Source of the DNA: Pyxidicoccus parkwaysis
GTDB taxonomy: Bacteria; Myxococcota; Myxococcia; Myxococcales; Myxococcaceae
Assembly: GCF_017301735.1 (NCBI RefSeq)
Contig: NZ_CP071090.1
Coordinates: forward strand, 4,330,001 to 4,394,000
DNA length: 64,000 bases
Direction: 5' to 3'
The translations under genes were made by a program, and so were the position numbers. Positions 35,598-46,709 of this stretch are shown here, piece by piece. The notes beneath the pieces were generated by a model, which was not told the DNA's origin, did not search any database, and saw only the letters and a list, made by a program, of their open reading frames with translations. How positions within the stretch are numbered: the stretch's first letter is position 1; the number at the start of each line of letters is the position of its first letter.

Positions 35598-37526
35598 CTA
35601 CGGCAGGGCGGCCTCCTTCGCGAGGAGGGCCTGGAAGTCCTCCAGCTTCATCGTCTTGAGGTCCTCGCCGCCATACCGGCGCGGCGCCACGGCCCCCGCC
35701 TCCACCTCGTTGTCGCCCACCACCAGGGTGAAGGGCACCTTCTGGAGCTGGGCCTCGCGAATCTTCGCGTTGAGCGTCATGCCGCGCTCGTCCAGCTCCA
35801 CCCGGTAGCCCCTGGCGCGCAGGCCGTCACGCACCTTGCGGGCGTAGTCGAGCTGACGGTCCGCCACGGTGACAATCGTCGCCTGCACCGGGGCGAGCCA
35901 CGCCGGGAAGGCGCCGGCGAAGTGCTCGATGAGGATGGCGGTGAAGCGCTCGAAGGAGCCGAAGATGGCGCGGTGGAGCACCACGGGGCGGTGCTCGGCG
36001 TTGTCCTCGCCCACGTACGTCAGGTCGAAGCGCTCCGGAGCCAGGTAGTCCAGCTGCATGGTGCCGAGCTGCCAGCGGCGGCCGATGCTGTCCGACACCG
36101 CGAAGTCGATCTTCGGGCCGTAGAAGGCGCCGTCGCCCGGGGCCAGCTCGTACGCGAGGCCCAGCGACTCCAGCGCCGCCTTGAGGCCGCCCTCGGCGCG
36201 GTCCCACAGGGAGTCGTCACCCAGCCGCTGCTCGGGACGCGTGGACAACTTCACCGCGTAGGTGAGGCCCACCGCCTTGTAGACGCGGTCCAACAGCTTC
36301 ACGAAGCGCCGCACCTCGTCGGTGATCTGGCTCTCCATGCAGTAGATGTGCGCGTCGTCCTGCGCGAACTGGCGCACGCGCGTGAGGCCGCCGAGCGAGC
36401 CCGCCGCCTCGTTCCGGTGCAGCACGTCCTGCGTGTGGAGGCGCAGCGGCAAGTCCCGGTAGCTGTGCTTCTTGAAGCCGTAGAACAGGTGGTGCGACGG
36501 GCAGTTCATCGGCTTGAGGGAGAAGTCATGCTCGCCGGACTCGCTGTCCAGGACGAGGAACATGTTCTCCTTGTACTTGCCCCAGTGGCCGCTCGTCTCC
36601 CAGAGGCCCTTGTTGAACATCAGGGGCGTCTTGATCTCCACGTAGCCGTCCTCGGCCGTGAGGTCGCGCATCCAGTTGGAGAGCGTCTGGTAGAGCGCGG
36701 TGCCCTTCGGCGTCCAGAAGGCGGCGCCGGGCGCGTACTGGTGGAAGTGGAAGAGGTCCAGCTCCTTGCCCAGCTTGCGGTGGTCGCGCTTCTTCGCCTC
36801 TTCAATCCGCGTCAGGTACTCCTGCAGCGCCTTCTTGTCGAAGAAGGCCGTGCCGTAGACGCGCTGGAGCATCGGGTTGCGGTGGTCGCCGCGCCAGTAG
36901 GCGCCGCTGGACGAGAGGATCTTGATGACGCCAATCTTCCCGGTGCTCGGCGCGTGGGGCCCGAGGCAGAAGTCCACCCAGTCGCCGTGCGTGTAGAGCG
37001 TGAGCGTCTTGGCGCCCTTGGCGGCGATGTCCTTGACGATCTCCACCTTGAACTTCTCGCCCTTGTCCTCGAAGAGCTTCACCGCGTCGTCCATCGAGAT
37101 TTCGGTGCGGACGAAGGGCGCGTCCCTCTTCAGCTCGGCGTTGGCCTCGGCTTCAATCTTCTCGAGGTCCTCGGGCGTGAAGGGCTTCTCGCGGAAGAAG
37201 TCGTAGTAGAAGCCCTCCTCCGTCGCCGGGCCGATGGTGACCTGCGTGCCGGGGAAGAGGCGCTGCACGGCGCTGGCCACCACGTGGGCGGCGTCGTGGC
37301 GGATGAGCTCCAGGGACTCGGGGCTCTTCGGCGTGAAGATCTGAAGCTTCGCGTCCTCATCCAGCTTCCGGGCCAGGTCCATGTCCTGGCCGTTCACCCG
37401 GGCGAAGAGGGCGGCCTTGGCGAGGCCCGCGCCGATGCTCTCACGCACGAAGTCCGCGATGGTGGTGCCCCGGGCGGTCTGCTTCTGGCTGCCGTCGGGG
37501 AGCGTCACCGTGATCATTTCGGACAT
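35598..37526 (-). CDS. thrS: Threonine--tRNA ligase
   Basis: Class II synthetase of 642 residues, the same length as the E. coli enzyme. The start ATG at 37526 ([13 protein letters not shown]) has a TGAGG six to seven bases upstream. In-frame sequence further upstream runs through the tRNA-Val gene and is not coding. Domains: TGS (1-63), editing domain with [16 protein letters not shown] and the later [12 protein letters not shown] (His/Cys site), catalytic core with [13 protein letters not shown] (zinc Cys/His) and [13 protein letters not shown], and the anticodon-binding end ([12 protein letters not shown]). It heads the translation block and sits just after a strong terminator-like hairpin. 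Confidence 0.97.
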
Positions 37527-37728: not shown

Positions 37729-38436
37729 TCAAGGAAACACGGAGGGCATTTCACCTCTTCCCGTCAGCAGCACGCGGACGCGCGCCATCACCGCGTCGAA
37801 CATCGCCGGGGTGAGACGCCCCGTCTGGGTGTTCTGCTGGCTGACGTGGTAGCAGCCCATGAGCGTCCGTCCGCCCGGCAGCGCCACCTCCGCGCCGTGG
37901 CCGAAGGCGGGCCGGGGCGAGCCCACCGCGACGCCGGTGCGCTCCAGCGAGGCGAGCGCGGCGTTCCACCCGATGGCCCCCAGTGCGAGCAGCACCCGGG
38001 CGGGCAGGAGCGCCATCTCCCGGTCCAGGAACGGCGCGCACCGGGCCAATTCGTCGGGCAGCGGCTTGTTGTCCGGCGGGGCGCAGCGGGCCGCCGCCAC
38101 GATGAAGGCGTCCGTGAGCGCGAGCCCGTCGTCCCGGTGCTCGCTCGTCGGCTGGTTGGCGAAGCCCGCGCGGTGCAGGCCGGCGAAGAGGAAGTCCCCG
38201 GAACGATCTCCGGTGAACATCCTCCCTGTCCGGTTGGCCCCGTGCGCCGCCGGCGCGAGACCCACGATGACCAGCCGCGCCTTCGGGTCTCCGAAGCCCG
38301 GCACCGGCCGGCCCCAGTAGTTCCAGTCGCGGTAGGCCCGGCGCTTCACCCGGGCCACTTCCTCGCGCCACTCGACCAGCCGGGGGCAGGCCGTGCAGGC
38401 GACGATTTCCTTGTGCAGCTTCTCCAGCTTCGTCAC
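37729..38436 (-). CDS. Uracil-DNA glycosylase, family 5 (UdgB-like)
   Basis: Base-excision repair enzyme of 235 residues that should remove uracil and other deaminated bases. The GTG at 38436 gives the start [20 protein letters not shown] and has a purine-rich GGGAG about a dozen bases upstream. The catalytic motif [19 protein letters not shown] is the form of family 5, which lacks the usual acidic or Asn residue of other families. Four cysteines (two in CTACPRL, one each in ARCAPPDN and LARCAPF) fit the 4Fe-4S cluster of families 4 and 5. A C-terminal [13 protein letters not shown] stretch supplies the second motif. It lies 25 bases after the AI-2E family gene, so the two probably form an operon. 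Confidence 0.9.
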
Positions 38437-38461
38437 CGCGGGCTCCCGTCGCCTCCCGTGC

Positions 38462-39736
38462 TCACTGCGAGGAGGCCTCGCCCGTATATAGCGACGTGCG
38501 CCGGTAGCGCTGCACCACCACGCGCAGCACCACCTTGAGGATGGCCGCCACGGGCACGGCAAGGAGGATGCCTACGAAACCGAACAACTCCCCGAACGCG
38601 AGGATGGCGATGATGACCGCCACCGGCGCCAGGCCCACCTTCTCGCCGACGATGCGCGGAGTGATGACCAGCCCCTCCAGCATCTGACCCACGACGAAGG
38701 TGCCCGCCACCGCGGCGAGCTGCCAGGGCCCCTGCCAGGACAGCATCAGCCCCACCAGCGACAGCAGGATGCCCACGCCTGTACCCAGGTACGGCACCAT
38801 GTTCCCAAAGCCGGCAATCACGCCGATGACGATGGCCATGTCGATGCCGGCCAGCGACAGCCCCACCGAGTAGATGGCCGACAGCACCGCGCCCACCGTG
38901 AGTTGCCCGCGCACGAAGGCGGAGAGCACCTCGTCCACCTCGGCGAAGCGGCGGCCGACGAGCGCCACCGTGCGGCGGGGCAGCAAATCTCTCACCATGC
39001 CCATCAGCCGCGGGTAGTCCTGGAGGAAGAAGAAGGCCAGCACCGGCACTACCGACAGGCCCAGGAGCGTGGCCACGAAGCGCGCCGTGTTGCCCGCGAA
39101 GCTCGCGAGGATTCGCGCCGCCGCGGGGCCCGCGCTCTGCACCAGGTCCGATGCCTGCTGCCCCAGTTCCGCGGTGCGCTGCCGCACCAGGTCCGGCAAC
39201 GAGCGGCCCAGCAACGCCTCGATGTGCGGCACCACCTGCGTGCTTCCGCGGCGGAAGAAGTCGGGGAGCTTCGCCGCCTCGTCGCGGAACACCGGGACGA
39301 GGTACAGCACCGCGCCCGCCGCGAGCAGCGTGCCGCCCACGAAGACGAGCGTCGTCCCCCACGTCCGGTCCAGCCCCCGCTTCTCCAGGGCCGTCACCAT
39401 CGGGTTGAAGATGTAGGCCCCCGACAACGCCAGCAGCACCGGCACCGCGACGCCACCGAACACGGAGAGCAGCGCGAACACCAGCCCCAGCGAGCCCACC
39501 ATCACCGCGGACCACCACAGGTCGATGCGCCGCGCCTCCACCTCGGTGAGCCCCACCTCGGGCGCGGGCGGAATCACGCTGCCTGGCAGTGGAGCGCTCG
39601 GCTGCCCTGCCCCTCCCGAGGCGGGTTGGGTCACCGCGTGGAGCACGGGCGTGGATGCAGCACCCGGCTCGACGTACGTGCCAGCAGGTGCCGCCCCCGT
39701 GGGGCGCACGGGCGTGGATGATGTGGCGGGTGCCAC
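38462..39736 (-). CDS. AI-2E family transporter (PerM/UPF0118)
   Basis: Multispan inner-membrane protein of 424 residues. The first 70 residues are Pro/Ala-rich and look cytoplasmic. About seven to eight membrane helices follow, with paired helices near residues 77-115 and 140-165, a soluble stretch at about 165-215, and the family-typical AGFGNMVPYLGTGVGILLSLVGL and ITPRIVGEKVGLAPVAVII. Relatives include the putative AI-2 exporter TqsA and transporters of unknown cargo; the substrate cannot be read here. The GTG at 39736 has no clear ribosome site, whereas an in-frame ATC at 39772 follows AGAGGAG at good spacing and only 24 bases after the FecR-like gene, so the true start may be non-standard. 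Confidence 0.88.
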   Translation of the reverse strand: MAPATSSTPVRPTGAAPAGTYVEPGAASTPVLHAVTQPASGGAGQPSAPLPGSVIPPAPEVGLTEVEARRIDLWWSAVMVGSLGLVFALLSVFGGVAVPVLLALSGAYIFNPMVTALEKRGLDRTWGTTLVFVGGTLLAAGAVLYLVPVFRDEAAKLPDFFRRGSTQVVPHIEALLGRSLPDLVRQRTAELGQQASDLVQSAGPAAARILASFAGNTARFVATLLGLSVVPVLAFFFLQDYPRLMGMVRDLLPRRTVALVGRRFAEVDEVLSAFVRGQLTVGAVLSAIYSVGLSLAGIDMAIVIGVIAGFGNMVPYLGTGVGILLSLVGLMLSWQGPWQLAAVAGTFVVGQMLEGLVITPRIVGEKVGLAPVAVIIAILAFGELFGFVGILLAVPVAAILKVVLRVVVQRYRRTSLYTGEASSQ

Positions 39737-39796
39737 CCCGGCACGAGCACTCGGTTTCCGACGGCGTCCGATGGCGTTCTCCTCTTCTGGTCCGGG

Positions 39797-40549
39797 CTAC
39801 GGCTTCTTCAAGCCGCCATTGCGCTTCACGAAAGCGCCGAAATCGTCATTGACCCGCTTCGTGTCCAGCTTCGTCACGGGGCCTACCTTGTCGCCCACTT
39901 CTATCTGCCTGTTCTTCTGCAGCTCGCGGACGATTTCCTCCCACTCCTCCACGGAGACTTCGTGCGGGCCGGGAACCTGTACACGCTCACCGGGCTTCGT
40001 GCCCGCGTCCGGCGCGGCCTTCGGCTTCGGCACGCGGGCCACCACCTGCACCACTCCCGTGTACACCTGCACCACCGTGCTCGGAGACAGCGCACCGACG
40101 ATGACGGGCGGCGCCGCGTCCACGCGCAGCACGGTGCCTCGCACGCCCGCCACCGCGCGGTCCGTCTTCACCTCGAACTTCGCCTCCGAGCCGGACAGCG
40201 CCTTCTTCACCTCGGCCCAGACCTTGCCCAGCTTGAGGTAGCCCGAGAAGCTCGTGCGCTCCTGGCCGGCGAACGTCGCCTCGGTGATGACGAGCTGACT
40301 GCCCGCGCTCAGCATCAGCACGCTGCCGTCGTTGAGCTCCAGCTTCACGCCGGACTTCGCGTCCACGTCCAGCGTGTCCTTCTGCTCGATGTCCACTCCG
40401 GACTGGAGCGCCTGACGCTCGGCACCTTCGGGCGTGCGCCACGCGGAGCCCTCCACCTTCACCACGCGGCCCACCGCCGCCGCGGCGAGTCCCGGCATGA
40501 GCAGCAGCGCCGCCACCAGCGCCCTCGCAGACCACGCGTCCCGTCGCAT
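39797..40549 (-). CDS. FecR-domain exported protein
   Basis: Exported protein of 250 residues starting at the ATG at 40549 that overlaps the preceding stop (TGATG). A signal peptide (RRDAWSARALVAALLLMPGLAAAA) is followed by a FecR-type beta domain (about 26-160) with the pattern GRVVKVEGSAWRTPEGAER, LNDGSVLMLSAGSQLVI and VKTDRAVAGVRGTVLRVD. The rest is a Lys-rich segment with no motif I know. FecR domains of this kind are found in many envelope proteins and do not imply iron signalling. It is co-translated with the PEGA lipoprotein and forms part of the four-gene envelope set. Confidence 0.82.
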   Translation of the reverse strand: MRRDAWSARALVAALLLMPGLAAAAVGRVVKVEGSAWRTPEGAERQALQSGVDIEQKDTLDVDAKSGVKLELNDGSVLMLSAGSQLVITEATFAGQERTSFSGYLKLGKVWAEVKKALSGSEAKFEVKTDRAVAGVRGTVLRVDAAPPVIVGALSPSTVVQVYTGVVQVVARVPKPKAAPDAGTKPGERVQVPGPHEVSVEEWEEIVRELQKNRQIEVGDKVGPVTKLDTKRVNDDFGAFVKRNGGLKKP

Positions 40550-40908
40550 CACGGAGCACCTCCGCCAGGGGCCGCCGCGGAGCGGAGCTGGATGGTCAGC
40601 CTCGCCCGGGCACCGCTGGGCTCGTAGTACGTCGTGTACGGCCAGAAGCCCTGCTTCTTCACCTCGATGTGGTGCAGCCCCGCGCCCACGCGGAGCGACT
40701 TCGGCGAGCCCGTGAAGTCGCTGCACAGCCCCTGGAGGACGCCGTCCAGATACACCTCCGCGTCCACCGGCTCGCAGCGCAGGGCCAGGTTCCCGCTCGG
40801 CGTCTCCGCGCTCCGCATCAGCTCGCGCGCCTTCGCCACGGACTCGGGCTCCTGGCGCCCCGCACATGCGCACGCCAACACCGCCGCTGCCAGCAGGACT
40901 CCTCGCAT
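40549..40908 (-). CDS. PEGA-domain lipoprotein
   Basis: Small lipoprotein of 119 residues. The signal peptide ends in a lipobox (VLACAC), so it should be lipid-anchored. From about residue 40 a PEGA-type beta domain reads LALRCEPVDAEVYLDGVLQG, with GLHHIEVKKQGFWPY. PEGA modules are small beta domains of surface and periplasmic proteins, often thought to bind wall or polysaccharide. Its start and stop both overlap the neighbouring genes as TGATG, which is strong evidence for translational coupling in this set. Confidence 0.85.
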   Translation of the reverse strand: MRGVLLAAAVLACACAGRQEPESVAKARELMRSAETPSGNLALRCEPVDAEVYLDGVLQGLCSDFTGSPKSLRVGAGLHHIEVKKQGFWPYTTYYEPSGARARLTIQLRSAAAPGGGAP

Positions 40909-42131
40909 CAACGGGCCAGCGTCAGCTCGACGGTGTTGCTCGTCACGCCCGTCACGCTGGCCTTCGCCGCGGGCTTGCCGCCCAGCGCCGTCGTGAGCTT
41001 CTGCTGGAAGGCCGCCTCGCCGAGCGCCTCGGCCAGCGCCTCCGTGCTGCCCAGGTAGCGCAGGTCGAACTGAATCTGTCCCTTCTGGAAGTTGCCCTGC
41101 TTCACGTCGCTGATGCCGGTGATGGTCCGCGCCAGCACGTCCTTGAAGGCCTTCACCGCCTTGAAGTCCGCCAGTCCCTGCACCGTCATCACCACCTGGG
41201 TGCCGTTCTGCTCCGCCTGGGAGAGGTAGTCCACCACCGCCTTGCGCACGCTCGCGACGATGTCCTTCCCTCGGTGCTGCGCAATCTGGAACGACGTGCG
41301 CTCATAGGACACGACGGGTGCCGCCGGGCCGCGGCTCTCGGGGCTGCTGTCGAACTTGTCGGCCAGCCGCGCGACCTGCGTGCCCGAGTCCGTCGCGAAC
41401 ACCGAGAGCTCCCACTCGCCGGAGACCATGTAGAAGCCCTTGAGCTGGTCCTGGAGCGTGCCCGAGTTGGAGCCCGGCTTCTCGTGGCGGAACGTGACGG
41501 TGCCGGTGATGACGTAGTCGGCGACCTTCAGCTCCTGGATGACCTTCCGGTCCGGAGTGGTGAGCGACACGCCCGAGGACAGCTCCAGCTTCCCCGCCGC
41601 GAAGGACGGGTCGATGATTCGCCAGCCGTCCTTGCTGAACGCATCCGTCAACACCTGCGTCAGCACCGCGCTGCTGGTGATGACCTTGTCCGGGCTCACG
41701 GCCTGCTCCTGCAGCACGATGAGCAGCCGGCTGTTGCTCATTCTCCGGATGAGCGCCTGCACCGCCTGGAGGTCCTTGTCGAGCTGGGCCGTGCCCACCT
41801 CCGCGCGGACCTTCACCTTCGCCACCCCGCCCTCCTCCTTGCGCTCCAGCACCTCGTGCGTGCGCACGTAGCCGGCGCTGCGCGTGAAGATGCGGTCGCT
41901 CAAGAGCTGGCTGTTCGCGGTGAGCGTGTCCGAGGACACCAACACTCCGGCCACCTGCTCCACCGCCTCGCGCAGGGCGGCGTTCTTCGCCTCGGCGAAG
42001 GCCTTGTCCCGGTTGCCGTCGACGATGGCCGCCTCGCCCGTGACTTCCTTCGTGACGGTGGCGGGCGGAGGCGCGGCCGCGAACACCGCCGAGGCCAGGA
42101 CCAGGGACAACGCCGTCAGCTTCAGGGACAT
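40908..42131 (-). CDS. Exported protein with FlgT-N-like domain
   Basis: Periplasmic or outer-membrane-associated protein of 407 residues. It has a signal peptide (KLTALSLVLASAVFA) and then a domain of the LPP20/FlgT N-terminal type, with GEAAIVDGNRDKAFAEAKNAALREAVEQVAGVLV. The middle part (about 130-300) resembles an ABC-type auxiliary or TolB-N-like fold (NSRLLIVLQEQ, ADYVITGTV), but I am not sure of that. It ends with a second alpha/beta stretch. In Vibrio, FlgT belongs to the flagellar H-ring; no flagellar gene is near and myxobacteria glide, so another envelope role is likely. It starts 22 bases after the LPP20-like gene. Confidence 0.72.
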   Translation of the reverse strand: MSLKLTALSLVLASAVFAAAPPPATVTKEVTGEAAIVDGNRDKAFAEAKNAALREAVEQVAGVLVSSDTLTANSQLLSDRIFTRSAGYVRTHEVLERKEEGGVAKVKVRAEVGTAQLDKDLQAVQALIRRMSNSRLLIVLQEQAVSPDKVITSSAVLTQVLTDAFSKDGWRIIDPSFAAGKLELSSGVSLTTPDRKVIQELKVADYVITGTVTFRHEKPGSNSGTLQDQLKGFYMVSGEWELSVFATDSGTQVARLADKFDSSPESRGPAAPVVSYERTSFQIAQHRGKDIVASVRKAVVDYLSQAEQNGTQVVMTVQGLADFKAVKAFKDVLARTITGISDVKQGNFQKGQIQFDLRYLGSTEALAEALGEAAFQQKLTTALGGKPAAKASVTGVTSNTVELTLAR

Positions 42132-42153
42132 GGCCGGCCTCGAGACGGGAGCG

Positions 42154-42996
42154 CTACTGGGTGACGATGACGACCCGGCCCTCGGCCAGGAAGAGCGTGT
42201 TGACTCCGGCCAGCGCCTTCGCGTCGTCCGAGGCGAGCACCAGGTCCGAGCCCTTCAGCCCCGTGGCCTTCACCACCAGCGGCTTCTCTCCCACCAGCTC
42301 GGCCTTCTTCGCCGCCTCGAGACTGTCGAACCAGGCCGCCACGCCCGCGGTGGCGCGACTCTCGTCGGAGAGCGCCGCCGCTCCGTAGAGCGCCTTGCCG
42401 GAGCCGTCCAGCAGCCGGGGCGCCAGCATGGGCTTCACGCCCAGGCCTCGCGCGTCCACCACCAGCCCCGTGTACTTCTCCGCGCCCTGCGCGTTGAGGG
42501 CAATCGCGGTGTCCGGCGCGGGCGTCACCAGCGACGCGGTGATGGCCGCGAGCGGCACCTCCACGTCCACCTCCACGCCACTGTCCGAGAAGTAACGCTT
42601 GGCCACGACCTTGTAGCCGCGGATGGCGCCCTCGACGCGGCCGCGCACCTCGTCGCGAGCCATCTCGTCCCCGACGGTGCGGCCGACGCTGAGCTGGATG
42701 CCTCGCGCCTGCTCCAGGAGATTGCGGAACGCGTCCATCTTCGCCGCGCGCTCCGCGCCCAGTCTCGCCTGCGCCGGATTGGCGGCCTTGAGGTCCGGCG
42801 CGCCTGAGCCGGTGGCCCGGAGCACCTGTCCCTCCCAGTTGACGCCGGCGCCCGCGGGCTTCGCGGCCTCCGCCGTAGGACTCGCGGGCTTCGCGGCCTC
42901 AGCCGCGGCGACCGGAGACGGGGCCTTCGCTTCCTTGCCCTGGCCGAGTGCCGTCAGCGGCACCGCCAGCAACATCCCCCACAGCGAACGCCTCAC
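42154..42996 (-). CDS. LPP20-like exported protein
   Basis: Exported protein of 280 residues. I chose the GTG at 42996 because a perfect GGAGGA lies seven bases upstream; a GTG further up would place that site inside the coding sequence. A signal peptide (RRSLWGMLLAVPLTALGQG) precedes an Ala/Pro/Lys-rich linker (to about 50). An LPP20-type domain follows with ARLGAERAAKMDAFRNLLEQ, RGRVEGAIRGYKVVAKRYF and VEVDVEVPL. A C-terminal domain of about 110 residues has no motif I recognise. It is the first gene of the envelope set that continues through the FlgT-N-like, PEGA and FecR genes. Confidence 0.75.
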   Translation of the reverse strand: MRRSLWGMLLAVPLTALGQGKEAKAPSPVAAAEAAKPASPTAEAAKPAGAGVNWEGQVLRATGSGAPDLKAANPAQARLGAERAAKMDAFRNLLEQARGIQLSVGRTVGDEMARDEVRGRVEGAIRGYKVVAKRYFSDSGVEVDVEVPLAAITASLVTPAPDTAIALNAQGAEKYTGLVVDARGLGVKPMLAPRLLDGSGKALYGAAALSDESRATAGVAAWFDSLEAAKKAELVGEKPLVVKATGLKGSDLVLASDDAKALAGVNTLFLAEGRVVIVTQ

Positions 42997-43113
42997 GGGA
43001 AATCCTCCAGTCCTCACCCGACGTGGCGGGTAGACACAGGACAGAATGATCCGCCATTGAAAGGGCCCGCTTCGAATGAAGTCAAGGCACGCCTCGATGC
43101 GTACCGCGACGCG

Positions 43114-43455
43114 TCAGTTCTCGTTGCCGTGTCGGTCGACGTAGGCGTCGATCATCTTACGGTGACGCTCGGTGAGGAGCGTGAAGCGGACACCCGAGCG
43201 CTCACGCTTCGCGGCGGGCGCGGCCTCCACCCACTCACGCACCACCTCGCCCTCGGCGTAGATGATTTCGTCCGAGCCCGGGAGCTGGAACTGGAGGCCG
43301 ATGCGCTTCGCCTCGTGCTGCGGCTCGAGCAGGCGAGCGAGGCTGAGTCCCTCCTGGCTGATGTCCGCGGCCCTCGACATGTACGGCACACCACCCATGT
43401 ACTTGTTCAGGTAGATGTCGAGGGGCGCCCGCCGGGCCTTCCGCTTGTCGCTCAT
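43114..43455 (-). CDS. PilZ-domain protein
   Basis: Single-domain protein of 113 residues starting at the ATG at 43455, with GGAGG about a dozen bases upstream. The PilZ pattern is visible: basic RKARRAPL at residues 5-12, then ADISQEGLSL in the place of the D-x-S-x-x-G motif. Together these residues bind cyclic-di-GMP in known PilZ proteins. It may link that second messenger to motility or development. It is transcribed alone, about 120 bases upstream of the LPP20-like gene and divergent from the FKBP gene. Confidence 0.86.
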   Translation of the reverse strand: MSDKRKARRAPLDIYLNKYMGGVPYMSRAADISQEGLSLARLLEPQHEAKRIGLQFQLPGSDEIIYAEGEVVREWVEAAPAAKRERSGVRFTLLTERHRKMIDAYVDRHGNEN

Positions 43456-43701
43456 TGCTCCGTCGCCTCCGTGAGATGCAACAGGCCGCTTCGGGGGTGA
43501 AGCAACCTGAGATTCAGGGTAGAGGCGCGCGATGAAGTCGCAAGAAAACGACCGGCGCTCCGCGCACCAGGCTGCGAGGCATGCGCCGACTGTGCTTCCT
43601 CGCTGAATTCTTCGCGCGGATTTGTGTCTGAGCAGCACGCGGAGGTGCACACGCCCGTGCGCCTCACGCCTATATTCCGCGCTCCCATGAAAGGCGAACG
43701 C

Positions 43702-44439
43702 ATGCGAACGATGTGGATGGCGGCCCTGGTGTTGGCGCTCGGCGCACCCGCGGCCCACGCTCAGACTCCGAAGCCCGCGAAGAAGCCCGAGCCCTCGGCA
43801 AAGCAACCCCCGGCCACCCCGCCCGCTCCCGCGGCCCCGTTCAACCCCGAGTCCGAGGACGCGAAGACCATCTACGCCCTCGGCGTCTCCATGGGCCGTG
43901 ACTTGTCCTTCTTCGCGCTGACGCCCGAGGAGGTACAGCTCCTCCAGAAGGGCCTCGCGGACAGCATCGCCGGCACCGCGCCCGCGATTGATGCAAAGGA
44001 ATACGGGCCCAGGATTCAGGCGCTCGCGAAGGCCCGGCAGGCGCAGGCCAGCGCCGCCTTGCTGGAGCGCGCCGCGAAGGAGCCCGGGGCCGTGAAGCTC
44101 CCCTCGGGCGTCATCTACCGCGAGGTGCAGGCCGGCACCGGCAAGAGCCCGCGCCCCACCGACACCGTGAAGGTGAACTACGAGGGCCGGCTGTTGGATG
44201 GCACCGTGTTCGACAGCACGGCGAAGCGCGGCATCCCCGCCGAGTTCCCCCTCAACGGGGTCATCCCCTGTTGGACTCAGGGCGTCGCGAAGATGAAGGT
44301 GGGCGGCAAGGCGCAGCTCACCTGCCCCGGCAGCACCGCGTACGGTGAGCGCCCTCCTCCGGGCTCGCGCATTCCGCCCAACGCCGTGCTCATCTTCGAC
44401 GTGGAGCTGGTGGACATCCCCGGCGATACCTCGAAGTAG
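43702..44439 (+). CDS. FKBP-type peptidyl-prolyl isomerase, exported
   Basis: Folding helper of the Mip/FkpA type, 245 residues. The ATG at 43702 has AAAGG at a suitable distance; an ATG at 43687 has none. A signal peptide (MRTMWMAALVLALGAPAAHA) leads to a Pro/Lys-rich spacer and an N-terminal helical dimerisation domain (about 45-125, SEDAKTIYALGVSMGRDL). The FKBP domain is at about 135-240 and shows VNYEGRLLDGTVFDST, FPLNGVIPCWTQGVAKMKVG and PNAVLIFDVELVDI. The usual catalytic-site aromatic and Asp residues are present. It stands alone on the plus strand, facing the peptidase gene. Confidence 0.92.
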   Translation: MRTMWMAALVLALGAPAAHAQTPKPAKKPEPSAKQPPATPPAPAAPFNPESEDAKTIYALGVSMGRDLSFFALTPEEVQLLQKGLADSIAGTAPAIDAKEYGPRIQALAKARQAQASAALLERAAKEPGAVKLPSGVIYREVQAGTGKSPRPTDTVKVNYEGRLLDGTVFDSTAKRGIPAEFPLNGVIPCWTQGVAKMKVGGKAQLTCPGSTAYGERPPPGSRIPPNAVLIFDVELVDIPGDTSK

Positions 44440-44488
44440 TCGCACCGGCTTCGGGCTCCGGAGCGACGCCGGAGCCCGGTGCAGTGGC

Positions 44489-46621
44489 TCAGTGCTTGTC
44501 GAGCGCGGCCTCGGTGGCGTGCAGCAGCGCGTCCGCGCTCACCGGCGCGCCCGTGGCGTGAATCATCCACTGGTCCGGCGTCACCGAGCCTTGGCTGGCC
44601 ATCCGCTCGAACTCCGCGCCCAGCGGGCCCTTGCGCTTCAGGTGCTCCTCAATCTGGAACGCGATGAGGTGGCCCAGCGGATAGTCCGGCAGATAGAGCG
44701 GGTAGCTGATCATGTGGCTGTAGACGCCCAGCAGCGTCGAGCCCTCGCCGCCCAGCACCGGTGCGTAGTACCGGTTCCACACGTCGCGGGAGATGCCCAC
44801 CACCGCGTCGCGCAGCTCCGCCGGCTTCGCGTCCGGATGCGCGTACATCCAGTGCCACACGGCCATGTCCACCAGCGCCACGCCGGAAATCTCCCACGTC
44901 TGCCAGAAGTCGTTCAGCACGCGCTCGCGCTCGGCGGCCGCGTCCGGCTTGCCCAGGCCCAGCAGCTCCAAGTCACGCGCCTGGAACACGAAGGCCAGCG
45001 CCTCCGTGAAGGCGCTGTTGGGCACGCCCGCGAGCAGCGTGTGGTCCACCTCATAGAGGCTGAACACCTGCTCCACGTTGTGCCCGAACTCGTGCACCGC
45101 GATGTTGTAGCCCTTGTAGTTCATGCCCCCCTTCTCCACGCGCGTGCGCAGGTGCGGGAAGTCCCCGCGCCGCATCGCCTGCTGCGCGTGGCCCGCTCCG
45201 CGTGACGCGTCCACCTGGATGTGCGCCGCCAGCCAGGTGGCCTTCTCACGCGTGAAGCCCAGCCCCTGGAGGATGCGCGGCAGGTCCTTCGCGAAGGCCT
45301 CCGCCGTGGGGTAGCGCTTGCGAGTCAGCGCATCCAGCTCCGTCTCCGGCCGCTTCGAGCCCGGCTTGAAGCCCGGGTACCAGAGGTCCTGCGGCCCCAG
45401 CTTGCGCCCCACCCGCGCTTCAATCTCCTTCGCCACGCGCGGCACCACGGGCGACTCCAGCACCTGCGTGAGCAGCGCCTTCACGCGCTCCTCGGGAATC
45501 TCGCGCATCAGCTCGAAGCTGCGCGCAATGCGCGTGGGCGCCACCGGCGAGTACGGGTCCGCCTTGCGCGCGGCCTGGAAGACGGCCAGCAGGTTCGCAT
45601 AGCGCGTGTCCGGCTCCGGGGCGGCGTCCGGCTTCACCTCGCGCGCGGGCGCGTCCTCCTCCACCGTCTCCGCGGGCGCCACCGTCACCGCGTTGGTGAA
45701 GGGGTTCCAGTCCAGCCTCGGGTTGTCGATGACGGCGGCGGGAATCGTCTGCGTGACGATGCGGTCCATCACCTGGAGGATGAGCTTCTGCTTCGCCGGC
45801 CCGTTGGGGTCCGTGTAGTCGCCCTTCAGCTCGTCACGCAGGTTCCAGTGGCTGATGAGCCGCAGCCCCTTGGGGAAGGGCCGCTTCCCCTCCGAGTCCA
45901 CGAGGTGATGCATCCAGATGTTGTACTCGGCGATGTAGAGGTTGGCCGCGGCGATGGCCCGCGACGACTCCTGCTCCACCTCCGCCGGCACGCGCCGGTT
46001 GAAGCGCGATGCGAGCCGCACCTCTGCCCACTGACGCCGCGTCCACTTCGGGCCCTGCTCCACGCGCTCCGACAGCGTGGTCAGCGGGAAGTTGAGCAGC
46101 ACCACGAAGCCCACCTTCGCCCGGAACAAGTCGCTCGTGACGTTGGTGGACGGGTCATACGAAGCCAGCAGCGGCTCCACCGGCAACAGCGGCCCCAGGT
46201 CCAGGTCCGTGTACCACTGCAGCTCGCGGCCCAGTTCGTTCATGTGGCCGTCGAGCTGCTCGAACACCCGCTCCAGCCGCGCGAAGGTGGCGTCCAGTGC
46301 CTTCGGGTCCGAGAGGAACTGCTCGCGGATGAACTCCGCCGCGTCCCCGTCCTCCTCGCGCCACTGCGCCAGCACCTGGTCCACGCCGCGCTCGATTCGC
46401 GCGCGCTGCGCTTCACCGTGCTTCGCCACCAGGTCCGCCTTCAGCGCGGCGGCGTCCAGCGCGGGCTTCTTCATCGCGGGCTCCTGCGAGGCGGCGGGAG
46501 GCGCCGGTGCTGGGGACGCTTGTGGACTGTCCGGCACGGGCCGCGGGGTGGAGCAGCCGAGCAGGGCGAGCAGGGGCAGCAGGCGGGCGCGCGCGGCGCG
46601 AGGTTTCTTCGGAGAGGACAC
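44489..46621 (-). CDS. Zinc metallopeptidase lipoprotein (gluzincin, HExxH)
   Basis: Lipid-anchored peptidase of 710 residues. The GTG at 46621 (VSSPKKPRAARARLLPLLAL) has GGAG eight bases upstream and gives a signal peptide ending in a lipobox (LALLGC). The catalytic helix is AVHEFGHNVEQVFS near residue 510. About 30 residues later SAFTEALAFVFQ offers the third zinc ligand Glu, the layout of M2/M3-like enzymes. The long N-terminal half is mostly helical and has no signature I recognise. It probably degrades peptides in the periplasm or at the surface; substrate unknown. It follows the cold-shock gene on the same strand but is unlikely to depend on it. Confidence 0.83.
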   Translation of the reverse strand: MSSPKKPRAARARLLPLLALLGCSTPRPVPDSPQASPAPAPPAASQEPAMKKPALDAAALKADLVAKHGEAQRARIERGVDQVLAQWREEDGDAAEFIREQFLSDPKALDATFARLERVFEQLDGHMNELGRELQWYTDLDLGPLLPVEPLLASYDPSTNVTSDLFRAKVGFVVLLNFPLTTLSERVEQGPKWTRRQWAEVRLASRFNRRVPAEVEQESSRAIAAANLYIAEYNIWMHHLVDSEGKRPFPKGLRLISHWNLRDELKGDYTDPNGPAKQKLILQVMDRIVTQTIPAAVIDNPRLDWNPFTNAVTVAPAETVEEDAPAREVKPDAAPEPDTRYANLLAVFQAARKADPYSPVAPTRIARSFELMREIPEERVKALLTQVLESPVVPRVAKEIEARVGRKLGPQDLWYPGFKPGSKRPETELDALTRKRYPTAEAFAKDLPRILQGLGFTREKATWLAAHIQVDASRGAGHAQQAMRRGDFPHLRTRVEKGGMNYKGYNIAVHEFGHNVEQVFSLYEVDHTLLAGVPNSAFTEALAFVFQARDLELLGLGKPDAAAERERVLNDFWQTWEISGVALVDMAVWHWMYAHPDAKPAELRDAVVGISRDVWNRYYAPVLGGEGSTLLGVYSHMISYPLYLPDYPLGHLIAFQIEEHLKRKGPLGAEFERMASQGSVTPDQWMIHATGAPVSADALLHATEAALDKH

Positions 46622-46645
46622 GTGGGGAGCTCCAGAAACACGAAG

Positions 46646-46665
46646 GGCCCGACCCTTTACGGGCC
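46646..46665 (-). terminator. Weak hairpin after the cold-shock gene
   Basis: Six perfect base pairs (46646-46651 with 46660-46665) around an eight-base loop, downstream of csp on the minus strand. There is no proper T-run after it, so the terminator role is a guess. Confidence 0.35.
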
Positions 46666-46709
46666 GGACCCCCATGTAGCATCAGGAAGTCGTTCGAACG
46701 ACGCCCTGC

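Follow-up and report, generated by a model that had tools for sequence, protein, structure and literature searches.

A myxobacterial envelope operon of FlgP-like, FlgT-like, PEGA and FecR proteins, read as the reduced form of an older non-flagellar gene cluster

Proteins of the FlgP, FlgT and FlgO families are known from flagellar structures, namely the basal disk of Campylobacter jejuni and the H-ring of Vibrio, and the literature found on such parts is mostly flagellar (PMC12222027, PMC11756786, PMC6375700). Lpp20 of Helicobacter pylori (HP1456) belongs with FlgP. Tp0624 of Treponema pallidum (Protein Data Bank entry 5jir) carries three domains, D1, D2 and an OmpA-like D3. According to its description, the three occur together only in treponemes, nearly 50 sequences have D1-D2 but no D3, no D1 without D2 is reported, and no function is assigned to D1-D2 (PMC5104382). 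CsgG and GNA1162 are known from curli and from Neisseria, respectively. Here we describe an operon of four genes, which we call P1 to P4, in a 64,000-nucleotide stretch of the single-contig, 13.2 Mb genome of Pyxidicoccus parkwaysis (NZ_CP071090.1, positions 4,330,001 to 4,394,000; hereafter the window, by whose positions features are numbered). P1 resembles D1-D2 of Tp0624 and the FlgP/Lpp20 proteins, P2 is FlgT-like, P3 is a small PEGA-domain lipoprotein and P4 is an exported FecR-domain protein. The parts belong to known families, and no paper on their combination was found in the open-access literature, so the suggestion that this gene set is undescribed stands within that literature. Our best reading is that the four genes are the form to which an ancient non-flagellar operon was probably reduced in Myxococcota.

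P2 and P4 occur and vanish together, and P1, in Myxococcaceae together with P3, persists without them. P1 was present in 27/27 genomes of the genus, with P3 beside it at all 27 loci; full-length P2 was found in five of the 27, a P4 orthologue in the same five, and both were missing from the other 22. The original prediction had proposed a stable complex of the four proteins; a single obligatory complex is not supported, because P1 and P3 are retained where P2 and P4 are missing. The pairing extends to the class. P2 matched 47/116 genomes as a single query and 55/116 as a profile, and we counted as P2-bearing the 45 genomes whose best pieces exceeded 120 bits (G001 in two pieces), leaving aside weak matches to P1, remnants and the truncated P2 of G004. 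P4 was counted as present at 200 bits or more, where the scores show a gap from 205.9 to 171.6. On this basis 44 of the 116 genomes carry both genes, one carries P2 only (G114), three carry P4 only (G089, G115 and G106) and 68 carry neither. The single gene found in G114, G089 and G115 sits at a contig end, and its partner may therefore lie off the contig; G106 (L080/L208) has an intact P4 and a 25-bit remnant of P2. G033 keeps P2 and P4 and gave no P1 match.

The losses were followed on a tree of 76 loci from 75 distinct genomes (L082 and L205 belong to the same genome). P3 is present at all 45 distinct P2-less loci and P4 is missing from 44 of them; these loci were found through P1, which makes the presence of P1, and not that of P3, a matter of construction. 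With P3 retained in the middle, the joint loss of P2 and P4 takes two separate deletions each time. By Dollo reconstruction, P2 was lost five times on a tree of 43 loci, and on the 76-locus tree P2 was lost eight times and P4 nine times; these counts depend on topology, and several nodes are weak. Remnants of the deleted genes are visible in two genomes. In G074 (L156), an in-frame P2 remnant of 36 codons keeps the first and last codons and ends in TGATG into P3, and the P4 remnant joins the first and last codons of that gene. G078 (L155) has a different, C-terminal remnant of P2, which likewise runs into P3 through TGATG, and a C-terminal remnant of P4. The distinct remnants indicate that P2 and P4 were deleted in different ways in the two genomes and that the coupling to P3 survived in both. 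A short P2 in G004 (L067:7338-8063) has N- and C-terminal parts and no middle domain; P3 adjoins it and no P4 orthologue was found there. At the P2-less loci L201 and L202, about 1.8 kb between P3 and an AI-2E-family gene gave no match to the models used.

At seven distinct loci (L054, L061/L144, L146, L147, L149, L060/L148 and L058/L150), the D1 domain of P1 is fused to P2 in a single open reading frame (ORF) with one signal sequence, read by eye; the fusion in L147 is cut by its contig. These loci carry D1 alone, in contrast to the published account of Tp0624, and the fusions argue for contact between D1 of P1 and P2.

Gene order was assessed in named genomes scanned with the P1 alignment, which listed at least 80 loci; the order counts refer to these 80 and come from models for which P1 and P2 sequences were kept apart. 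The complete order P1-P2-P3-P4 is present at 45 of the 80 loci, and 16 have P1-P2-P4 without a detected P3, a short gene that may have escaped detection at these loci or disappeared from them. Seven have P1-P3, six P1-P2 only, on contigs that end soon after, and three P1 only; the rest are L080 (P1, a P2 remnant, P3 and P4) and two others (L133 and L151). The listed loci reach contigs labelled, as recorded, Syntrophaceae and Desulfobacterales, so the order, whose conservation had been left as a check, is kept far beyond close relatives. P1 was found in 145/193 Myxococcota genomes.

Eight deep loci (L121, L124, L128, L129, L130, L131, L132 and L134) carry a longer operon of seven genes, in the order P1, a TPR/SLH lipoprotein, P2, GNA1162, CsgG, P3 and P4. 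L141 lacks only the TPR gene of this set, and L119, L127 and L139 show the first part of the long operon on contigs that end early. GNA1162-like genes stand in tandem, in two copies, in L130 (12405-13767) and L131 (12405-13758), and a second FlgT_N protein (2e-9) is encoded at L134:16525-17652, one gene downstream of P4, on a contig labelled Desulfobacterales. The threonyl-tRNA synthetase gene thrS, which is downstream in the window, is also downstream in four of the eight complete deep loci (L121, L124, L129 and L132); it falls outside the stretches covered for L130, L131 and L134, and L128 ends before it. Its presence in both settings makes descent of the locus more plausible than its repeated assembly. 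The window operon is thus best read as what remains of an old outer-membrane gene cluster after reduction. CsgG/GNA1162 pairs also occur independently of P1-P4: a search that gave loci L210-L217 found pairs about 1 kb apart in G008, G021, G024, G035, G057, G058 and G069, in which no P2 was found, whereas such a pair coexists with P2 in G096 and G108.

Structural and profile comparisons place P1 with Tp0624 and the FlgP/Lpp20 proteins. The window P1 has no Pfam match at E<=1, and the name LPP20 holds through its relatives: 21 of 27 aligned P1 proteins match LPP20 at E<=0.1 (best 4.2e-6), and the orthologue in L129 exceeds the cut-off of the family (PF02169; 34.2 vs 25.9 bits). The AlphaFold2 monomer of P1, from an alignment of 58 sequences (window and named contigs), has a predicted local distance difference test score (pLDDT) of 88.0. 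It matches Tp0624 in Foldseek at 1.1e-12 and in VIA with Z 20.0 over 225 residues, a root-mean-square deviation (rmsd) of 3.9 and 21% identity; against Lpp20 (5ok8), VIA gives Z 9.8 over 103 residues and rmsd 3.5. The P1 profile finds 5jir at 2.2e-14, C. jejuni FlgP at 1.7e-13 and Vibrio FlgP at 6.5e-9. P1 thus covers the D1-D2 tandem of Tp0624 and ends with D2, without the C-terminal D3. It shares its SHS2 domain with FlgP and Lpp20 by profile and fold and differs from them in several respects: P1 adds D2, its signal sequence, read by eye in the window and in the L134 orthologue, contains no cysteine and so no lipobox, and its genome gave no flagellin match. Helices 108-111 and 115-126 (within 99-126) occupy the place in the monomer model where a ring-forming beta-hairpin would sit. 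According to PMC12222027, ring formation in the SHS2 superfamily is tied to such an insert between the SHS2 helix and the second strand.

The P2 of the window matches FlgT_N (2e-7, 31.9 bits vs a cut-off of 28.8), as do 33/33 aligned P2 proteins at E<=0.1; FlgT_M and FlgT_C gave no Pfam match in the window or in the aligned proteins. Its AlphaFold2 monomer (pLDDT 88.6, 64 aligned sequences, again of the window and named contigs) has FlgT (3w1e) as top Foldseek match at 2.8e-12, a likeness that holds domain by domain only, as the whole chain superposes with a template modelling (TM) score of 0.27-0.31 and rmsd 20.4; VIA aligned residues 26-303 to 3w1e with rmsd 15.2. Against 8z5n, the flagellar LPHT ring, VIA gave Z 11.5 over a span of 124-397 (151 residues, rmsd 3.0). 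The Z scores of TolB, PelC and further lipoproteins differ from that of 8z5n by no more than about one unit, so the middle domain is to be regarded as TolB-N/CsgG/PelC-like and not specifically FlgT. The same fold is matched by 4hrv and 4uv2 in Foldseek and is held in common with the CsgG/GNA1162 systems. Profile matches of P2 were FlgP at 4.6e-6, FlgT at 6.7e-4 and, weakly and in the middle domain, FlgO at 5e-3. The monomer has a helix at 71-83 and no beta-hairpin insert. P2 therefore has FlgT_N and a domain-wise FlgT fold in common with the Vibrio proteins, and it differs from them in the missing FlgT_M and FlgT_C matches, the poor whole-chain superposition, the non-flagellar operon and the FecR protein as genomic partner. 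P1 and the N-terminus of P2, aligned separately, share 59 columns (hhalign probability 92), and these comparisons indicate that both contain SHS2-type domains of the FlgP/Lpp20/FlgT superfamily.

The remaining two proteins exceed their family cut-offs as well: P3 matches PEGA with 25.8 bits vs 20.8 (E 9.7e-6), and P4 matches FecR with 46.3 bits vs 24 (E 5.9e-12). Together with FlgT_N in P2, these matches bear out the domain homologies that had been proposed. Cys15, the lipobox cysteine of P3, is invariant across 25 aligned sequences, and AVAGVRGT (residues 132-139) of P4 is invariant in 33 aligned proteins. Nine window proteins at 37729-46675 were scanned, and no gene for an extracytoplasmic function (ECF) sigma factor was found among them; FecR-type sigma-factor signalling was therefore rejected for P4. 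Partial NCBIfam matches link P2 to Leptospira LipL46 (2.1e-9, 36.6 bits vs a model cut-off of 400) and P4 to Leptospira LipL45 (4.1e-10, 39.2 bits vs 350).

The four genes are under coding constraint. Between the window and its relatives, the ratio of nonsynonymous to synonymous substitution rates (dN/dS) is 0.16-0.20 for P1, 0.33-0.53 for P2, 0.35-0.42 for P3 and 0.31-0.38 for P4. This constraint against close relatives and the conserved gene order show that the arrangement is more than chance. In nine pairs of genomes that have lost P2 and P4, the ratio is 0.09-0.27 for P1 and 0.145-0.50 for P3, and both genes stay under purifying selection there. Among genomes that keep P4, it is 0.13-0.16 in the pairs L093/L098, L104/L138 and L095/L138, and looser in the window clade (also 0.45, L072/L074) and in Corallococcus (0.39 and 0.58). 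These values are only suggestive of a relaxation of P4 before its loss. For P2 the keepers are not consistently tighter (0.19-0.50).

We propose that the system is a non-flagellar periplasmic scaffold associated with the outer membrane, in which P1, joined by P3 in Myxococcaceae, is the persistent core and P2-P4 form a module that can be removed; we put the chance of this reading at about even. P1 would be the constant core, and the P3 lipoprotein, where present, would anchor the assembly under the outer membrane. P2 may act as an SHS2/TolB-N-type adaptor that contacts P1, the SHS2 domains of the two probably packing against each other, given the fusion of D1 to P2 in some lineages. P4 would be the dedicated partner of P2, and the two would form a removable tier that in the deep form may serve a CsgG/GNA1162 outer-membrane assembly, in export or in cell-wall coupling. 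This assembly would have been lost from the locus in Myxococcia. In fold and probably in location, such a scaffold would resemble the components of flagellar H-rings and basal disks, but it would not depend on a flagellum. Several points weigh against it. The predicted localisation is derived from signal sequences and homology, and P1 lacks the lipobox of FlgP and Lpp20. In the models, the whole P2 chain superposes badly on FlgT, whose likeness to the P2 middle domain is about equalled by TolB, PelC and other lipoproteins. Rings of the FlgP type are doubtful for P1 and P2, as neither AlphaFold2 monomer has the beta-hairpin that PMC12222027 ties to ring formation. CsgG and GNA1162 are not in the window locus, a P1-P3 core cannot be general given the 16 of 80 loci without detected P3, and P2 is weakly associated with flagellin.

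That association belongs to the view that P1-P4 are a flagellar relic, that is, leftover or accessory H-ring or basal-disk parts of a lost or present flagellum. The folds and profiles do match FlgT and FlgP, and among the 116 genomes of the class, 22 of which match flagellin, matches are found in 14 of the 45 P2-bearing genomes and eight of the 71 others (p=0.014, not corrected for ancestry). Yet 31 of the 45 have no flagellin match, eight flagellin genomes lack a full-length P2, and P1 shows no association (15/90 vs 7/26, p=0.26, with a P1 list that comes from a separate Myxococcota sample and may not cover all 116 genomes). Neither model has the ring-forming hairpin. In agreement with the claim that no flagellar gene is near, the window genome has no flagellin match, and besides FlgT_N no flagellar family was found among the nine scanned window proteins, other loci not having been scanned for them. 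A flagellar accessory was rejected as the leading explanation on flagellin co-occurrence, and we consider the relic very improbable. The possibility that the genes merely share a neighbourhood, with translational coupling and slow rearrangement next to thrS keeping four unrelated envelope genes together, deserves equally little credence. The order of thrS, PilZ and AI-2E genes is also often conserved, and P1-P3 can persist without P2-P4 and P1-P2-P4 can occur without P3, but mere proximity leaves unexplained why P2 and P4 are lost together though the intervening P3 stays, why P1 and P2 are fused, and why distant loci with further genes inserted still preserve the order.

Two further explanations give the operon a task in export or motility. 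As an outer-membrane adaptor of the Agl/Glt gliding machinery or of an exopolysaccharide exporter, the set would account for the resemblance of the P2 middle domain to PelC and CsgG, which are outer-membrane export parts, for the CsgG gene of the deep loci and for the retention of P1 and P3 throughout the genus. Myxococcus and Corallococcus glide, however, and full-length P2 and P4 are absent from many of their genomes and from 22 of the 27 genus genomes. A gliding complex of all four proteins was rejected for this reason, and a gliding task for P2 and P4, which the original prediction had considered, is unlikely, although no gliding gene was searched for. No polysaccharide gene was found among the nine window proteins scanned, and elsewhere no search was made for Glt, Agl or polysaccharide genes. 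We regard this explanation as quite unlikely, and the same holds for a CsgG-type secretion system in which the operon encodes an outer-membrane exporter with P1-P4 as its periplasmic adaptors. The latter draws on the CsgG and GNA1162 genes between P2 and P3 in the eight complete deep loci (1.7e-28 and 2.4e-23 in L129). Against it, P1-P4 are retained at most Myxococcota loci in an operon without both genes; in the window genome GNA1162 has no match and CsgG a single partial one (27.6 bits), which lies elsewhere, and Pfam found no CsgG among the nine window proteins.

The anatomy of the operon agrees with the original prediction: ORFs and letters confirm four exported proteins encoded in tandem with TGATG overlaps or a gap of about 20 bases, followed by an AI-2E-family gene (Table 1). 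P1 and P2 are spaced by 22 bases, and the P2/P3 and P3/P4 junctions are both TGATG overlaps. P1, P2 and P4 start with Sec-type signal sequences in which no lipobox cysteine was read by eye. No promoter was found in a scan, and a scan for terminators did no better than chance. A phage origin was rejected, as no match to PHROG at E<=0.001 was obtained for any of P1-P4.

Table 1 Features of the operon and its surroundings in the window
Feature	Position	Strand	Description
P1	42996-42154	-	280-aa exported protein; SHS2/LPP20-FlgP-like domain (~50-157) and Tp0624-D2-like domain (~170-280)
P2	42131-40908	-	Exported FlgT-like protein; FlgT_N (29-112), TolB-N/CsgG/PelC-like middle domain (~133-305), alpha/beta C-terminal domain (~310-407)
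P3	40908-40549	-	Small PEGA-domain lipoprotein; start overlaps P2 stop (TGATG)
P4	40549 (ATG) or 40552 (GTG)-39797	-	Exported FecR-domain protein; start overlaps P3 stop
AI-2E-family membrane protein	38462-39736	-	Downstream of P4; PF01594, 7.7e-52
PilZ-domain gene	43114-43455	-	Upstream of P1; PF07238, 1e-8; syntenic marker
thrS	35598-37523	-	Downstream; name given by eye; syntenic marker
728-aa exported protein	44489-46675	-	HEFGH metallopeptidase-like motif (by eye)

The AI-2E gene is a frequent, not a constant, neighbour and is probably outside the system. Its ORF begins about 60 bases past P4 if the GTG at 39736 is the start; an ATC codon six bases after GAGGAG (39736-39772, minus strand) may be an alternative start. 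The string GAGGAG-AACGCC-ATC recurs in L073/L156, which are one genome, and in L074, so that this context is common to only three genomes. The PilZ gene adjoins the operon in most Myxococcaceae loci examined, and the gene of the 728-residue protein, which has no match in Pfam or NCBIfam, is near it in many.

Taken together, the original prediction holds in its observation of the operon, the homologies, the wide conservation of order and a gene set undescribed in the open-access literature; the single obligatory complex is not supported, and the gliding task for P2 and P4 is unlikely. FlgP, FlgT and FlgO have been studied as flagellar accessories, and the operon supplies a non-flagellar context for them. 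It also supplies a genomic context for D1-D2 of Tp0624, a pair whose structure has been published but to which neither a function nor a genomic context has been assigned. A wider view, which we hold to be rather unlikely, is that the deep seven-gene operon encodes an undescribed non-flagellar outer-membrane machine of FlgP-, FlgT/FlgO-, CsgG- and GNA1162-type subunits, that H-rings and basal disks were recruited from such machines, and that the myxobacterial P1(-P3) and P2-P4 are its survivors. The loci form a natural deletion series: there are loci with only P1-P3, with P4 beside a P2 remnant, with P2-P4 but no P1 match, with P1-P2-P4 but no P3, and with P1 and P2 fused. This makes the relations between the partners directly testable, partly in cultured myxobacteria.

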